From Elusimicrobiota bacterium (lineage in GTDB: Bacteria > Elusimicrobiota > Elusimicrobia > 2-02-FULL-39-32): DNA of 14,378 nucleotides. Made by a program: the position numbers and the translations under genes. Numbering within the stretch: the first letter of the stretch is position 1; every line of letters begins with the position of its first letter. This document shows positions 631 to 10,721 of this stretch, one piece after another. The notes below the pieces were generated by a model, which searched no databases, had not been told where the DNA came from, and was given only the letters and a program-made list of their open reading frames with translations. The stretch lies in NCBI GenBank assembly GCA_016193115.1, contig JACPSV010000196.1:1-14378 (forward strand). The letters run 5' to 3'.

Positions 631-978
631 ATGAAAGAACTCGTCGCGATTATTCGACCGAACCAATGGCAAAAGACGAAATCCCGTCTTGTGGAGGAAG
701 GGTTTACCGCTTACACGGTGCAGAGAGTTTATGGAAGAGGTCGTCAGAAAGGACTTCAATATCTCTCTAAAACAGGCAAGGTCCAGGAAGGTATCCGGTT
801 CCTTCCCAAACGGATGGTCACATTATTTCTGCAAGATGAAGACATTCCCAGAGCGATCGAAGTTTTTCTGGAAACAAACCAAACCGGCGAAATTGGCGAC
901 GGTAAAATATTCGTCTGCCCATTGGACGCCGCGCAACGGATCCGAACGGGAGAAAAAGGAGAGGAAATACTGATATGA
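631..978 (+). CDS. nifI2: NifI2-like PII nitrogen regulatory protein
   Basis: A 115-residue PII-superfamily protein. PII proteins are small trimeric cytoplasmic sensors of 2-oxoglutarate and adenylates that bind and control nitrogen enzymes and transporters. The opening MKELVAIIRPNQ, the mid-region LPKRMVTLFLQDED, and the end NQTGEIGDGKIFVCPLDAAQRIRTGEKGEE follow the NifI2 (second nitrogenase-linked PII) pattern as I know it, rather than canonical GlnB/GlnK; the T-loop segment (about residues 38-55) lacks the GlnB uridylylation context. NifI2 normally works with NifI1 to inhibit nitrogenase reversibly. Here the partner NifI1-like protein is encoded at the far end of the same operon, after narK and nirA. 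An AAAGGA ribosome site lies 7 bases before the ATG, and the stop overlaps the narK start as ATGA. The PII fold is certain; the NifI2 subtype is likely. Confidence 0.85.
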   Translation: MKELVAIIRPNQWQKTKSRLVEEGFTAYTVQRVYGRGRQKGLQYLSKTGKVQEGIRFLPKRMVTLFLQDEDIPRAIEVFLETNQTGEIGDGKIFVCPLDAAQRIRTGEKGEEILI

Positions 979-2351
979 GCGCACTCAACCGTCATTCTGA
1001 GGCGAAGCCGAAGCCGCTTTCTTTACAACTTCACAAGGAAGCGGCATTCCCTCGCTGGAAGCTCGGTCAGAATCTACTGCCTTCCTGGTCAGAGCGAGCC
1101 AAACAGTTCGCACAAGCGGGTCATCTGCCCACACTTCTGTCCGCCTTCTTTTATTTTGACGTGTGTTTTGCGATTTGGGTTTTGAACGGCGCGATGGCTC
1201 CTTTCATTAGCGAGGAGTTCCATCTGACGCCCGCGCAAAAAGGACTCATGGTTTCGGTGCCCATTCTCTCCGGAGCTCTGATGCGATTTCCTTTGGGCGT
1301 GCTCGCGGAATATATCGGCAGAAAATCAGCGGCCATGGTAGAAATGAGCATGATCACGATCGCTCTTCTTTATGGCTGGTTATTCGTAAACACATACCAG
1401 GAAGTCCTAACGATGGGCATTCTCTTGGGTATCGCCGGCGCCAGTTTTGGCGTTGCCCTTTCCCTGGGATCTGGTTGGTATCCTGCCGAATACAAAGGTC
1501 TGGCCATGGGCATAGCCGGAGCGGGAAACAGCGGCACGGTTCTAGCGACATTCTTTGGGCCTCCCCTCGCTCAAAAGTATGGATGGGGATCCGTCTATGG
1601 TATCGCCATTCTTCCCATGCTGATTGCGATGGCCGCACTTTTCTTTTTGGCGAAGGAACCGCCCAACCCGCATGAGAAGAAACTAAAAGATTACATGAAA
1701 GTTCTGGTGGAAAAAGACGCCTGGATCATGAATTTAACCTATATCGTGACGTTCGGCGGTTTTATCGGCCTTTCTAACTTCATGCCCACATTTTTTCATG
1801 ATCAATTTGGGATCAGCAAAATTAAAGCCGGCCAGTTCACGACTCTGGTAGTTCTCATGGGGAGCGCTGCCCGAGTAGTGGGAGGATACCTTGCTGACCG
1901 GTTGGGCGGCATCAAAATCTTGAAAGGGGTCTTGATCCTGGTTTTCACAGGGGTGATCCTGGCCAGCCAAGCGACAAACCTTTACCTGATGACAGCCATT
2001 CTTCTCCTCATCTTTGCGGGATTGGGGGCAGGAAACGGATCCGTTTTTCAGTTGGTGCCGCTTCGTTTTCCGTACGCCACCGCGGTTGCTTCCAGCCTGA
2101 TCGGGGAAATCGGCGCCCTGGGAGGAGCCATTATTCCCAACGCCATGGGATTGTCCAAACAATGGATGGGGAACTTCGTGTTTGGGTTTGTGAGCTTCGG
2201 CGCGATCGTTTCTTTCGCGTTCTTAGCGATCTACAAGAGCGAGCGGCAATGGATTCTAAACTGGGTCGGAGAGGGCGGCAAAGCATTAAGAGAAGATTTG
2301 GCGATTCCACATGGGCGCGTGGTCATGGTTCCTGTCATGGAGATCTGGTAA
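975..2351 (+). CDS. narK: Nitrate/nitrite transporter, NarK/NNP family (MFS)
   Basis: A 458-residue major facilitator protein with about 12 membrane segments beginning near residue 51. Both nitrate-signature motifs are present: AGAGNSG at residues 181-187 and GLGAGNGS at 349-356. The LMRFPLGVLAEYIGRK loop after TM2 and the matching ARVVGGYLADRLGG in the second half carry the paired arginines expected for anion binding. It likely imports nitrite and/or nitrate for the downstream reductase. The start is fixed: it overlaps the nifI2 stop (ATGA at 975-978), and no ATG, GTG or TTG codon follows in frame until TM1. Residues about 6-33 of the cytosolic N-terminal tail are encoded by a palindromic repeat (991-1073), so the tail is longer than I would expect for the family. 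The C-terminal tail ends in RVVMVPVMEIW, and its last base is shared with the nirA start (TAATG). Confidence 0.93.
   Translation: MSALNRHSEAKPKPLSLQLHKEAAFPRWKLGQNLLPSWSERAKQFAQAGHLPTLLSAFFYFDVCFAIWVLNGAMAPFISEEFHLTPAQKGLMVSVPILSGALMRFPLGVLAEYIGRKSAAMVEMSMITIALLYGWLFVNTYQEVLTMGILLGIAGASFGVALSLGSGWYPAEYKGLAMGIAGAGNSGTVLATFFGPPLAQKYGWGSVYGIAILPMLIAMAALFFLAKEPPNPHEKKLKDYMKVLVEKDAWIMNLTYIVTFGGFIGLSNFMPTFFHDQFGISKIKAGQFTTLVVLMGSAARVVGGYLADRLGGIKILKGVLILVFTGVILASQATNLYLMTAILLLIFAGLGAGNGSVFQLVPLRFPYATAVASSLIGEIGALGGAIIPNAMGLSKQWMGNFVFGFVSFGAIVSFAFLAIYKSERQWILNWVGEGGKALREDLAIPHGRVVMVPVMEIW
991..1073 (+). repeat. Palindromic repeat element inside the narK coding sequence (copy A)
   Basis: Bases 1011-1072 match 9673-9734 at 58 of 62 positions without a gap. 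The inner stem GCCGCTT (1013-1019) / AAGCGGC (1039-1045) is kept. The right outer arm (1051-1068) is also present. The left outer arm differs from the other copy: it reads GTCATTCTGAGGCGAAGCC, and ATTCTGA (994-1000) pairs with TCAGAAT (1067-1073) to close the element. It is translated as part of the NarK N-terminal tail. Exact borders are uncertain. Confidence 0.88.
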
Positions 2352-3919
2352 TGTTTATTCCCGGCGCAAACCCTATCGAAAAATATAAATCGGAAAAAGA
2401 CGGTTTCGATATCCTTCAGGAAATTGAAACGATAGCGGCCAACGGGTACGCCCAAATCGCTCCGGGAGACGTGGAACGTTTGAAATGGATTGGGACGTTC
2501 CTGCGCAAAAGAACTCCCGGATTTTTCATGATGCGTATCCGCATCACAGGCGGCCAGACCAACAGCCGTCAGATGCGCGCTCTGGCTGGAATTTCCGAAC
2601 GGTTAGGAAACAATATCATGGATGTGACCACCCGTCAACAAATCGAGCTGAGAGCGATTAAGATTGAGTCTGTCCCGCAAATTTTGAAAGAATTGAAAGA
2701 AATAGACCTCTCCAGCTTTCAAACGGGTATGGACAATATCCGCGGCGTGAACACTTGTCCTCTTTCCGGACTTACGCCTCACGAAATTCTGGACGCTTAT
2801 CCTTATACCATAGAATTCACGAACCTATTTCTCAAAAACAAAGAGTTCACCAACCTGCCCCGCAAGATGAACGTGACCTTTACCGGTTGTCTGGAAAACT
2901 GCACCCACCCGGAATCGCAAGACATCGGTCTCGTACCGGCTAAGAAGGATGGAAAAGCGGGTTTCAATGTTTCTGTGGGCGGTAAAATGGGATCCGGCGG
3001 ATTCTGCAACTCTAGAAATTTGGACGTTTTTGTGACGGCCAAAGACGCCGCGCCTCTCTCCGCTGAAATCGCGCTCCTCTTTAGAGATCATGGATTGAGA
3101 GGCGAGAGAACCAAATGCCGACTCGCGTTCCTTCTGGAATCGTGGGGAATGGATAAGTTTCGTTCCGAACTGGATGCCCGCTGGTTCTCGAAGACCGGAG
3201 AACACATGAGACCTGCCGGCCAAGACCTGCGCAGAGAAACGGAGACCGACCATCTGGGCGTCACACCGCAAAAACAACCGGGTCTCTATGCGGTTGGACT
3301 TAAAATTCCTGTGGGAAGGATCACGGCAAAACAAATGCAGGAGTTGGCGCGCCTTTCAGAATCTTATGGAAGCGGAGAGCTCCGCATCACTCCCCAACAA
3401 AACATCCTATTGATCAATATCCCAAAAGAAAAACTCAATGGTCTTATGGAAGAACCGCTCCTCACCCATCTTACTCCGGAACCGACGCCTCTCTCCAGAA
3501 AAATGGTGAGCTGCGTGGGCACTGACTATTGTAACATCGCCCTGATTGAGACCAAAGGAATTGCTCTTCAGGTGAATGCGGAGCTGGAAAAGAGGTGCGG
3601 CAAAGAAGTTCTGGAACCCATCACGATCCGCTGGTCGGGTTGCGCCGCCGGTTGCGGAAACCACCATACGGCCGACATTGGATTGCAGGGAATCAAGGCC
3701 AGCGTGGACGGCAAAGTCGTGGATGCCGTGCACATTTTTGTGGGCGGAAAATCCGGCAAAGACGCCCGTCCCGCCGAAAAGATGATGGAGTTGGTTCCGA
3801 TTGACATTTTGCCGGACGTTTTGATGTTGATTATCCGGAACATGAACTTATTGAAAAAGGTCCGTCGCGACGTCGAAGCGGAACAAAGAGTCGTGATGGT
3901 CCCATCCAATTACGAGTGA
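2351..3919 (+). CDS. nirA: Assimilatory nitrite reductase, siroheme and [4Fe-4S] (NirA type)
   Basis: A 522-residue protein with the duplicated nitrite/sulfite reductase fold. The C-terminal half carries the cluster and siroheme ligands CVGTDYC (C388, C394) and CAAGC (C431, C435), followed by GNHHTADIGL. The N-terminal half has NTCPLSGLTPHE and GCLENCTHPESQDIGLVPA (C180, C184), typical of ferredoxin-nitrite reductases. The predicted reaction is six-electron reduction of nitrite to ammonium in the cytoplasm, probably with ferredoxin as donor. A sulfite reductase cannot be excluded by sequence alone, but the NarK and PII neighbours favour nitrite. I chose the ATG at 2351, which overlaps the narK stop (TAATG) and has GGAG about 8 bases upstream; earlier in-frame starts lie inside narK. 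No nitrate reductase is visible in the window. The C-terminus ends in RVVMVPSNYE, sharing RVVMVP with the NarK tail. Confidence 0.9.
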   Translation: MFIPGANPIEKYKSEKDGFDILQEIETIAANGYAQIAPGDVERLKWIGTFLRKRTPGFFMMRIRITGGQTNSRQMRALAGISERLGNNIMDVTTRQQIELRAIKIESVPQILKELKEIDLSSFQTGMDNIRGVNTCPLSGLTPHEILDAYPYTIEFTNLFLKNKEFTNLPRKMNVTFTGCLENCTHPESQDIGLVPAKKDGKAGFNVSVGGKMGSGGFCNSRNLDVFVTAKDAAPLSAEIALLFRDHGLRGERTKCRLAFLLESWGMDKFRSELDARWFSKTGEHMRPAGQDLRRETETDHLGVTPQKQPGLYAVGLKIPVGRITAKQMQELARLSESYGSGELRITPQQNILLINIPKEKLNGLMEEPLLTHLTPEPTPLSRKMVSCVGTDYCNIALIETKGIALQVNAELEKRCGKEVLEPITIRWSGCAAGCGNHHTADIGLQGIKASVDGKVVDAVHIFVGGKSGKDARPAEKMMELVPIDILPDVLMLIIRNMNLLKKVRRDVEAEQRVVMVPSNYE

Positions 3920-3928
3920 GGTGACCCA

Positions 3929-4246
3929 ATGAAAATGATACGCGCCATTGTCAGGCCGGAAAAAGAAGAGGAAGTCCTAAAATCATTAGAGACAGCAGGG
4001 TTCCCGTCCATGACCAAGATGGACGTTTTAGGCAGGGGTAAACAAAAGGGTATCCAAGTCGGAACCGCAGTTTACGATGAGCTCGCCAAGACAATGATTA
4101 TGGTTGTCGTAGAGGATACTCAAGCAGAGAAAGCAGCAGCCGCTATCACCGAATCCGCCAAGACAGGCAATTTTGGAGACGGCAAGATATTTGTTTCCAC
4201 TGTAGACTCCGCGATCACCATCCGCACAGGAAAACCCTCCGCTTAA
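3929..4246 (+). CDS. nifI1: NifI1-like PII nitrogen regulatory protein
   Basis: A 105-residue PII-superfamily protein. It begins MKMIRAIVRPEK, continues AGFPSMTKMDVLGRGKQKGIQVG, then YDELAKTMIMVVVED, and ends NFGDGKIFVSTVDSAITIRTG. These blocks follow NifI1, the first of the two nitrogenase-linked PII proteins of methanogens and some anaerobic bacteria, rather than GlnB/GlnK. NifI1 and NifI2 act together as a 2-oxoglutarate-responsive inhibitor complex on dinitrogenase. Here the gene is the last of the nifI2-narK-nirA-nifI1 operon, 9 bases after the nirA stop, with GAGGTG 6 bases before its ATG. I infer that the pair senses nitrogen status and acts on nitrite uptake or reduction, or that it acts on a nitrogenase encoded elsewhere. 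The sequence does not decide between these. Confidence 0.87.
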   Translation: MKMIRAIVRPEKEEEVLKSLETAGFPSMTKMDVLGRGKQKGIQVGTAVYDELAKTMIMVVVEDTQAEKAAAAITESAKTGNFGDGKIFVSTVDSAITIRTGKPSA

Positions 4247-9615: not shown

Positions 9616-9644
9616 TTGACATCCCTTGGTTCATGGGATATAAT
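9616..9644 (+). promoter_or_regulatory. Perfect-consensus sigma70-type promoter for the M23 peptidase gene
   Basis: TTGACA (9616-9621) and TATAAT (9639-9644) are both exact consensus with the ideal 17-base spacer. Transcription should begin near 9651, immediately before the palindromic element, giving a leader of about 150 bases. Confidence 0.88.
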
Positions 9645-9650
9645 GAAGCG

Positions 9651-9734
9651 TTCCTGTGACCGAGCTTCAGCGAGGCCGCTTTCTTTATAACTTCACAATG
9701 AAGCGGCATTCCCTCGCTGAAAGCTCGGTCAGAA
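9651..9734 (+). repeat. Palindromic repeat element in the M23 leader (copy B)
   Basis: The outer arms GACCGAGCTTCAGCGAG (9658-9674) and 9713-9730 are complementary except for one bulged A. The inner stem GCCGCTT (9675-9681) / AAGCGGC (9701-9707) is perfect. The 62 bases from 9673 to 9734 match 1011-1072 inside narK with 4 mismatches. It begins at the predicted transcription start, so the mRNA would carry a long structured 5' hairpin. Confidence 0.88.
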
Positions 9735-9803
9735 ATGGTTGTACCTTAGATGTTACAGGAGGAGACGAAGTCTCACTCTCGTCCTTTAGGATAAGAAAAA
9801 ACC

Positions 9804-10721
9804 ATGAATAAAATGGGGTGGTTGCTCTTTGGTTTAGTGTTGTCGGGCATCTTTACGTTGCCGCAGGTCTTTAGTCTCAACGTAACGGCTCCCGCTTCTG
9901 CCCATCGGGAAAGAGCGTTGTGGGTGACGGAAGCGGACGGCTTCTTGCCGGAAAGTGAGACGAAGACGATCTTGAGACAGCTGGAGATCCCGATCGTGAA
10001 GAGTTATACGGTCCGGAGAAACGAATGGCTGGAAAAGATCGCTCAGGAGTTGGGCGTTCCCGCCCTCTCTATCCGCAGCACCAACAATCTGGAAGACCCT
10101 CGACTGCGTCCTAACCAGCGGATCCTGATTCAGAACAAAAAAGGGATGGTTCACCTGTCCAGAGGAAATGAAAGTCTCGAGGCCGTGGTGAAATCCTACG
10201 AAAAGTTGGGCGGCACGCGGGAAAAAATTCTGGCGTCAAACCCCATGGACGAGATTCTGACTCTGGAAAATGGGCAGTGGATTCTAAAAGAAGGAATCAA
10301 ACTCTGGATTCCGGACGCGCGGCGAAGTTATCCATTTCTCGCCCGGCCTGTTCAGTGGCTGCGGATTTCGTCCCGGTTCGGCGTGAGGCGGCACCCGATC
10401 ACCCGCAGGAAACGATGGCACGAAGGATACGATCTGGTAGCCCGGTACGGGGCTCCCGTTTATGCCAGCCAAACCGGAGTGATCAGCTTTGCGGGATGGT
10501 CGGGAGGATACGGAAATGTCGTGGATATTCGTCATTCCCAGATCACCACGCGTTATGGACATCTCTCGGAGATATTGGTTAGCGACGGACAGAGAGTGAA
10601 GAAAAGGCAAATCATTGGTAGGGTTGGGTCCACGGGTCTTTCGACGGGGCCTCATCTCCACTTTGAAGTGCGCAGGAATTCAGACGGAAAATCTTTAGTG
10701 CCAGGAAGGTATCTATACTAA
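9804..10721 (+). CDS. LysM-containing M23 (LytM-type) murein endopeptidase
   Basis: A 305-residue cell-wall hydrolase or hydrolase activator. An N-terminal hydrophobic segment (about residues 5-25) is a signal peptide or membrane anchor. A LysM module ([18 protein letters not shown] to about residue 112) should bind peptidoglycan, with a second, weaker LysM-like stretch (about 115-170). The C-terminal M23 domain (about 185-300) keeps its zinc and catalytic residues: H206 and D210 in HEGYD, H253 in RYGHL, and H284/H286 in GPHLHFEV, so it should be active in the periplasm. The start follows AGGAT at 12 bases. A perfect promoter and palindromic repeat lie upstream, and rpmE begins 1 base after the stop, so the two are probably cotranscribed. 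Confidence 0.93.

Follow-up and report, generated by a model that had tools for sequence, protein, structure and literature searches.

The question raised by this locus is whether a palindromic repeat lying directly after the start codon of narK, a transporter gene, is read as part of the protein, and how it came to be there. The window, a stretch of 14,378 nucleotides analysed as a whole, is contig C89 of the Elusimicrobiota MAG G000 (1.5 Mb, 321 contigs, 80% complete). In it, narK and a nitrite/sulfite reductase gene are bracketed by two PII genes (631-4246). Another palindrome (444-516, 27-nt arms, GTCATTCCCGTG.. type) lies between a porin-like gene and the first PII gene, and peptides that by eye resemble this repeat type are found in frame in the Elusimicrobia proteins P0124, P0129 and P0130. 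At 551-609, upstream of the PII gene, a hairpin followed by a T-run looks terminator- or attenuator-like by eye. An Rfam search over 400-1300 gave eight matches, all sub-threshold, nearly all to microRNA families and none on the narK insert; they fall on hairpins near the insert, including 551-609, and were rejected. The features of the window are collected in Table 1.

Table 1. Coordinates of the features discussed, in positions of the window
Feature	Position	Strand	Basis
PII (NifI-like) gene	631..978	+	Pfam P-II, E 3.3e-21
narK, MFS nitrate/nitrite transporter, 458 aa from ATG 975	975..2351	+	Pfam MFS_1
Composite palindromic insert, narK codons 6-35	990..1080	+	Own-genome search, comparison of copies' flanks
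Repeat A half (CGTCATTCTGAGGCGAAGCCGAAG), hairpin with CGTC tag; continuation of A at 1071-1080 (AATCTACTGC)	990..1013	+	
Repeat B core, hairpin, common to 9671-9734	1009..1072	+	Direct repeat; RNA fold
CTG, possible non-canonical start, aligned with M1 of P0001	1077..1079	+	
Nitrite/sulfite reductase gene, directly after narK	2351-3919		
Second PII gene, after the reductase gene	3929-4246		
Leader ORF P, GTG, 51 codons, stop TAA 9809-9811, holds B and C in frame	9656..9811	+	
Second B copy, long palindrome together with flanks	9671..9734	+	Direct repeat; DNA fold
Repeat C hairpin, in frame in leader ORF	9756..9791	+	
LysM/M23 peptidase gene, downstream of leader ORF P; start overlapped by leader	9804..10721	+	

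The first-pass annotation had described a repeat unit at the narK start, read as residues of about 6 to 33 and identical at 58/62 positions to a copy at 9673-9734. The same match is recovered as a pair of direct repeats of 64 nt, 94% identical (1009-1072 and 9671-9734). The frame is indeed open after codon 5, but the extent is larger, as a composite at 990-1080 covers residues 6-35. The second copy, described as lying between genes, is a true copy of the repeat but sits in an open leader frame running from GTG 9656 to TAA 9809-9811; a DNA fold of 9640-9750 gives z -6.5. Searching the MAG itself with the insert yielded 29 matches at E<=10; many are short, and the 9671 copy has E 2.6e-22. The element is dispersed through its own genome and therefore the repeat match is not due to chance. 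This genome-wide search for the core and for other in-frame copies, suggested by the first-pass annotation, matched the composite over at least 41 nt at 11 places. Five of them fall within the frames of genes, namely narK, a HAD hydrolase, a 576-aa ORF and, with the beginning of B only, dnaX and an NHL-repeat gene. Four have B in frame within leader ORFs (C89 at 9671, C153, C37 and C34), and two (C217 and C245) are in neither. A dispersed palindromic repeat read through in the narK frame is confirmed as real.

Close copies of the 91-nt unit 990-1080 are found on C259 (98%), C217 (96%) and C245 (92%), with partial copies elsewhere. In repeat A, two hairpins of CGTCATTCTGAGGCGAAGCCGAAGAATCTACTGC type form a palindromic dimer; near-full copies stand on C86, C14, C307 and C225, and a search for A-type hairpins gave 18 matches in the MAG. 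Comparison of the flanks places B within A on C89, C259, C217 and C245, the narK copy being one A half that encloses B. The A copies on C86, C307, C225, C256 and C14:2422 lie in no convincing gene frame and that on C299 lies only in a 161-aa open frame; copies on C115, C120, C280 and C245:4751 were left out of this frame classification. B-like matches were obtained in three of nine family genomes, our own included. In the relative G006, a diverged B copy stands just 5' of a frame that we take to be glycyl-tRNA synthetase alpha-like (locus L063).

The tail is absent from the NarK orthologues examined, as the first-pass annotation supposed. NarK matched at E<=0.001 in 13 of the 60 genomes searched, our own included, and the matches were long in six of the 59 others (G001, G003, G005, G007, G008 and G040; 57-71% identical). 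These six relatives align only from residue 39-43 of our NarK, and the codons at which they might start are a short way 5' of the AGH motif. Of the 7,867 NarK homologues found in the protein database at E 1e-30, 120 were listed, and none of these 120 carries the tail peptide. P0031 shows an N-terminal similarity to the tail (from residue 4, 96% coverage) that we judged to be chance; in this protein an internal M precedes the conserved AGH motif. A contig scan found narK relatives in two named genomes, both Elusimicrobia MAGs. By eye, narK in G005 and in G007, a genome of the same family as ours, is immediately preceded by the end of a PII-like frame, with a short spacer between them. One protein, P0001, is identical to NarK at 421/424 residues (99%); its sequence starts MPSWSER, and the initial M aligns with our L35 (CTG). 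As only its protein sequence was read, we interpret P0001 as a putative empty allele, that is, a strain without the insert. The first-pass annotation had also named the reverse course, in which relatives would carry the same residues and the repeat would derive from narK. We looked for such relatives and this derivation was rejected: narK in the relatives examined is without the repeat, and the other copies are in unrelated contexts.

Read from ATG 975, the insert gives RHSEAKPKPLSLQLHKEAAFPRWKLGQNLL (residues 6-35) with no stop. ATG 975 overlaps the PII stop TGA 976-978 and has an SD-like GGAGAGG on its 5' side, and the next in-frame ATG, GTG or TTG is GTG 1161, at residue 63. The start had been called pinned, from the ATGA overlap and the lack of another start codon before TM1. 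The in-frame CTG 1077 stands at the exact position of M1 in the 99%-identical P0001, and "pinned" is therefore too strong. The chance that an upstream ATG joins the narK frame is about one in four to five by our estimate, which is not very unlikely. We infer that the N-terminal tail is translated. AlphaFold2 (31-sequence alignment, mean pLDDT 82.9) predicts a confident helical transporter core and a tail without secondary structure; residues 1-33 and 441-458 have pLDDT <50. In MFS proteins of the NarK type the N-terminus is cytosolic, and thus the tail would be cytosolic.

Peptides from A and B are found in open frames also in purL, in a 617-aa ORF and in a 453-aa ORF that is paralogous to the 576-aa one; Pfam gave no match for the ORFs of 576, 453 and 617 aa. 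The HAD hydrolase insert is C-terminal, from residue 237, and 0 of the 119 homologues listed align past 245. That of the 576-aa ORF is internal, and the own-genome paralogue and the homologues P0123 and P0124 are without an insert there. No near-identical strain was found for this ORF: besides its own entry, the best match had 68% identity, or 71% where only 32% of the query was covered. In purL and dnaX the repeats lie in linkers of variable length among relatives and the alignments give no clean gap, so that insertion there is read from the repeat sequence itself.

Repeat C is a hairpin of 36 nt, exactly 12 codons; a query with C and the leader family P (see below) gave 52 matches at E<=1 in the MAG, many short. 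In GcvPB (L130:1369-2868) C is read as TGGDEVSLSSFR and faces an exact 12-residue gap in 1wyt_B. The case of bioF is less clean, with partial, rearranged C pieces in a gap relative to 6onn and 5jay (about 30 residues fewer there), while a FAD oxidase has a C copy within another palindrome, near its C-terminus. The N-terminal reading of C in a LeuD-like ORF (L070) is less certain, as are the cases of L134 and L137. Three of the six frames of the common 36-nt unit are open, and all three are found in open frames in the MAG. The 576-aa ORF carries a double change in C that keeps the hairpin and avoids a stop. The same variant, GTGAC..GTCAC, is also seen in the leader copies L127, L135 and L136, which makes the variant weaker evidence of selection, and special selection was downgraded as its explanation. 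A, the composite and C are each dispersed in several copies in the genome, and the in-frame insert is absent in the orthologues compared, cleanly in gcvPB, the HAD hydrolase, narK and the 576-aa ORF. Since further copies are in frame in other proteins and in leader ORFs, the repeats behave as protein-coding palindromes.

The leader ORFs form a family of their own, P, with the consensus MTE-x-QR-x-NG(F/C)TLDV-x-x-KKP and 34 distinct copies in the own-genome loci fetched. They typically have 19 codons, of MTELQR-NGFTLDVIGKKP type (9656-9811 in the window, L151, L157, L187, L025 and others), and some stand directly 5' of genes that by eye resemble eno, ribBA and parA. A stop-start overlap ends 23 of the 34 copies (ATGA in 22, GTGA in one). 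A one-base deletion near the end of the 9656-9811 leader shifts its stop off the usual ATGA, and the stop of the C34 copy is likewise moved by a shift near the end. C-like peptides are in frame in 11/34 leaders and B-like ones in 4/34. P-like matches were found in 11 of the 80 genomes searched, our own included; in G015, G034, G040, G067, G069 and G077, of another Elusimicrobia family, they cover mainly the first 28 nt. Related leaders in genomes of that other family (L202, L205, L207, L211, L214 and others) have 18-19 codons and read MTE-x-KRGNG.... Among 27 leader copies read in relatives, an ATGA or GTGA overlap is present at the end of 17. Arms of the form ATGGTT..AACCAT can pair across the start codon of the downstream gene; some relatives show compensating changes (TTGC/GCAA, TCGC/GCGA), others mismatches. 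A TATAAT-like box (at least 5/6) lies 5' of 26/63 leader copies, whereas shuffled sequences give about a quarter; the box is 6 nt before the leader start in 12 of these 26. The sequences suggest that P leaders may be leaderless mini-ORFs coupled to downstream genes. Our literature search gave neither coding palindromes nor coupled leader ORFs in Elusimicrobiota among the matches listed.

Copies inside and outside genes differ in their stop codons. Translation in the narK frame meets no stop in the narK and HAD copies but is interrupted in all three of the leader or intergenic copies that were translated. At the first diagnostic codon, the four own copies read in narK's frame have CAA (narK, HAD and 576-aa ORF) or CAG (NHL gene), and all six own leader or intergenic copies have TAA. 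At the second, the three in-frame copies that cover the position have TGG, CGA and TGG, and TGA stands in 6/6 leader or intergenic copies. The nominal one-sided probabilities, 1/210 for the first position and 1/84 for the second among own copies, or 1/330 and 1/120 when a G007 copy is included, are indicative only, because the copies are few and related and dnaX, in its other-strand reading, likewise has CAA. Part of the contrast may therefore be subfamily ancestry. The codons at the second position suggest that TGA was lost at least twice separately, via TGG and via CGA.

We consider it likely that a non-autonomous composite element inserted at the nifI-narK junction and that narK is now translated from ATG 975 through the element. 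Half of a repeat A enclosing B would have entered this junction in an Elusimicrobiota lineage, removing or displacing the native start region of narK. Translation would then have moved to ATG 975, with its PII stop overlap and its SD-like GGAGAGG, and NarK would have gained about 34 residues at its N-terminus, a cytosolic and probably disordered segment. The element may have been mobilised in trans; a search for Y1_Tnp found none in G000, which is 80% complete, and matches over cut-off in 2/9 family genomes. The insertion, itself a reconstruction from compared sequences, was presumably neutral, and the element would be tolerated because the frame used is stop-free and the segment lies N-terminal to the first membrane helix. 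Alternatively, the element could be extragenic, narK starting inefficiently elsewhere or at CTG 1077, and the repeat would be a 5' untranslated hairpin. Several observations make this unlikely. CTG is a rare start codon and no SD is visible 5' of it, whereas ATG 975 has one; no stop interrupts the frame from ATG 975; and the internal in-frame copies of the 576-aa ORF and gcvPB, which are free of start-site ambiguity, are left unexplained. On its side are the alignment of P0001's M1 with that CTG and the folding of the element as RNA (985-1085, -31.8 kcal/mol, z -2.0). Moreover, REPs at annotated ORF N-termini are, according to passages of PMC3733652, often extragenic, or may be so in many cases.

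The tail could also be a functional acquisition, for instance a segment through which the neighbouring PII proteins dock or regulate the transporter, given that PII genes stand on either side of narK and the reductase gene and that the tail is basic-rich and, by topology, probably cytosolic. However, the same peptide is found in the unrelated HAD hydrolase and 576-aa ORF, the tail is absent in G005 and G007 despite the same PII-narK neighbourhood, and it is predicted at low confidence, without secondary structure. We regard this role as very improbable, and nothing was found that links the NarK tail to the PII genes. Finally, the MAG is fragmented (321 contigs, 80% complete), and the contig might have been joined through the repeat, or narK might be dead. 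Conservation of the PII-narK order in G005 and G007 disfavours misassembly, the narK copy has sequence variants of its own, and the 458-codon frame is intact with a core 99% identical to P0001, so that an artefact or a pseudogene is hardly credible. Insertion at the junction followed by translation from ATG 975 is the reading that we retain.

It is tempting, although doubtful, to propose that A, B and C are nested modules adapted to translated DNA, tending to keep the frame, being open in several frames and losing stops in the frame used. Leader ORFs of 18-19 codons, often beside a -10-like box and coupled to downstream genes through an ATGA overlap, would be the reservoir from which they enter proteins, forming tails and linkers there. 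If true, this would be the counterpart in an uncultured phylum of the coding palindromes of Rickettsia, and the comparison of narK with P0001 would allow the fate of new segments to be followed. The lineage, including the apparent strain polymorphism of narK, would offer a natural system for asking how mobile DNA extends proteins and whether stop-free variants are selected. There is also a warning for annotation: "HSEAKPK", "SASPQND", "LEETKSHSRPLG" and similar peptides in proteins of such MAGs are repeats and not domains.

Coding palindromes are best known from Rickettsia, and intragenic REPs are established in a range of other bacteria (PMC3733652, PMC2229807, PMC10969869). Among known systems, Wolbachia palindromic elements (WPE) are reportedly protein-coding palindromic repeats. 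The parallel with Rickettsia palindromic elements (RPE), drawn already in the first-pass annotation, fits a dispersed palindrome that is read in frame and absent from the orthologues examined. As sections of PMC3733652 describe them, RPE are short palindromes that occupy in-frame positions in numerous conserved genes unrelated to each other, while further copies are intergenic, and RPE-4 and RPE-6 are CGTC-tagged; some RPE-tagged products are reported there, and in part of PMC2229807, to be expressed in Rickettsia. Our repeats share the in-frame position in unrelated genes and the intergenic copies, and the A half shares the CGTC tag given in those sections (PMC3733652). They are set apart by description, being nested hairpin composites of A, B and C plus leader ORFs, in Elusimicrobiota. 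The first-pass view that the family differs from RPE therefore holds for B, which looks clearly different, but not for the A half, which carries the RPE-type tag (PMC3733652, in the sections cited).

The CGTC-tagged REP superfamily (Di Nocera et al. 2013, PMC3733652) is characterised, in the passages concerned, by a stem of 8-9 bp, a loop of 4-5 nt and a CCA-type tail, and intragenic copies are reported. The A half has the tag at 990-993 and, like these REPs, starts with CGTC and has A-T and T-A as its first stem pairs; the full C86 copy starts CGTC and ends GACG, and full A copies resemble the head-to-head REP dimers, with the CGTC ends outside (same passages). By eye, however, A has a stem of ATTCT + GA/GA mismatch + GGC (5+3 bp), a GAA loop and a CTA tail, and repeats B and C, unlike CGTC REPs, are without the tag. 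Elusimicrobiota is not among the five phyla that the cited part of PMC3733652 names for these REPs. Intragenic GTAG REPs, ERIC/RU and Correia MITEs are, in excerpts of PMC3733652, PMC2229807 and PMC10969869, mobile sequences of small size that have become in-frame parts of ORFs; from these descriptions, we judge A, B and C to be different in structure and host. In summary, the insert is placed as a nested Elusimicrobiota variant of protein-coding palindromes and is not filed as an RPE, because A shares the CGTC tag but has neither the uninterrupted stem nor the CCA tail.
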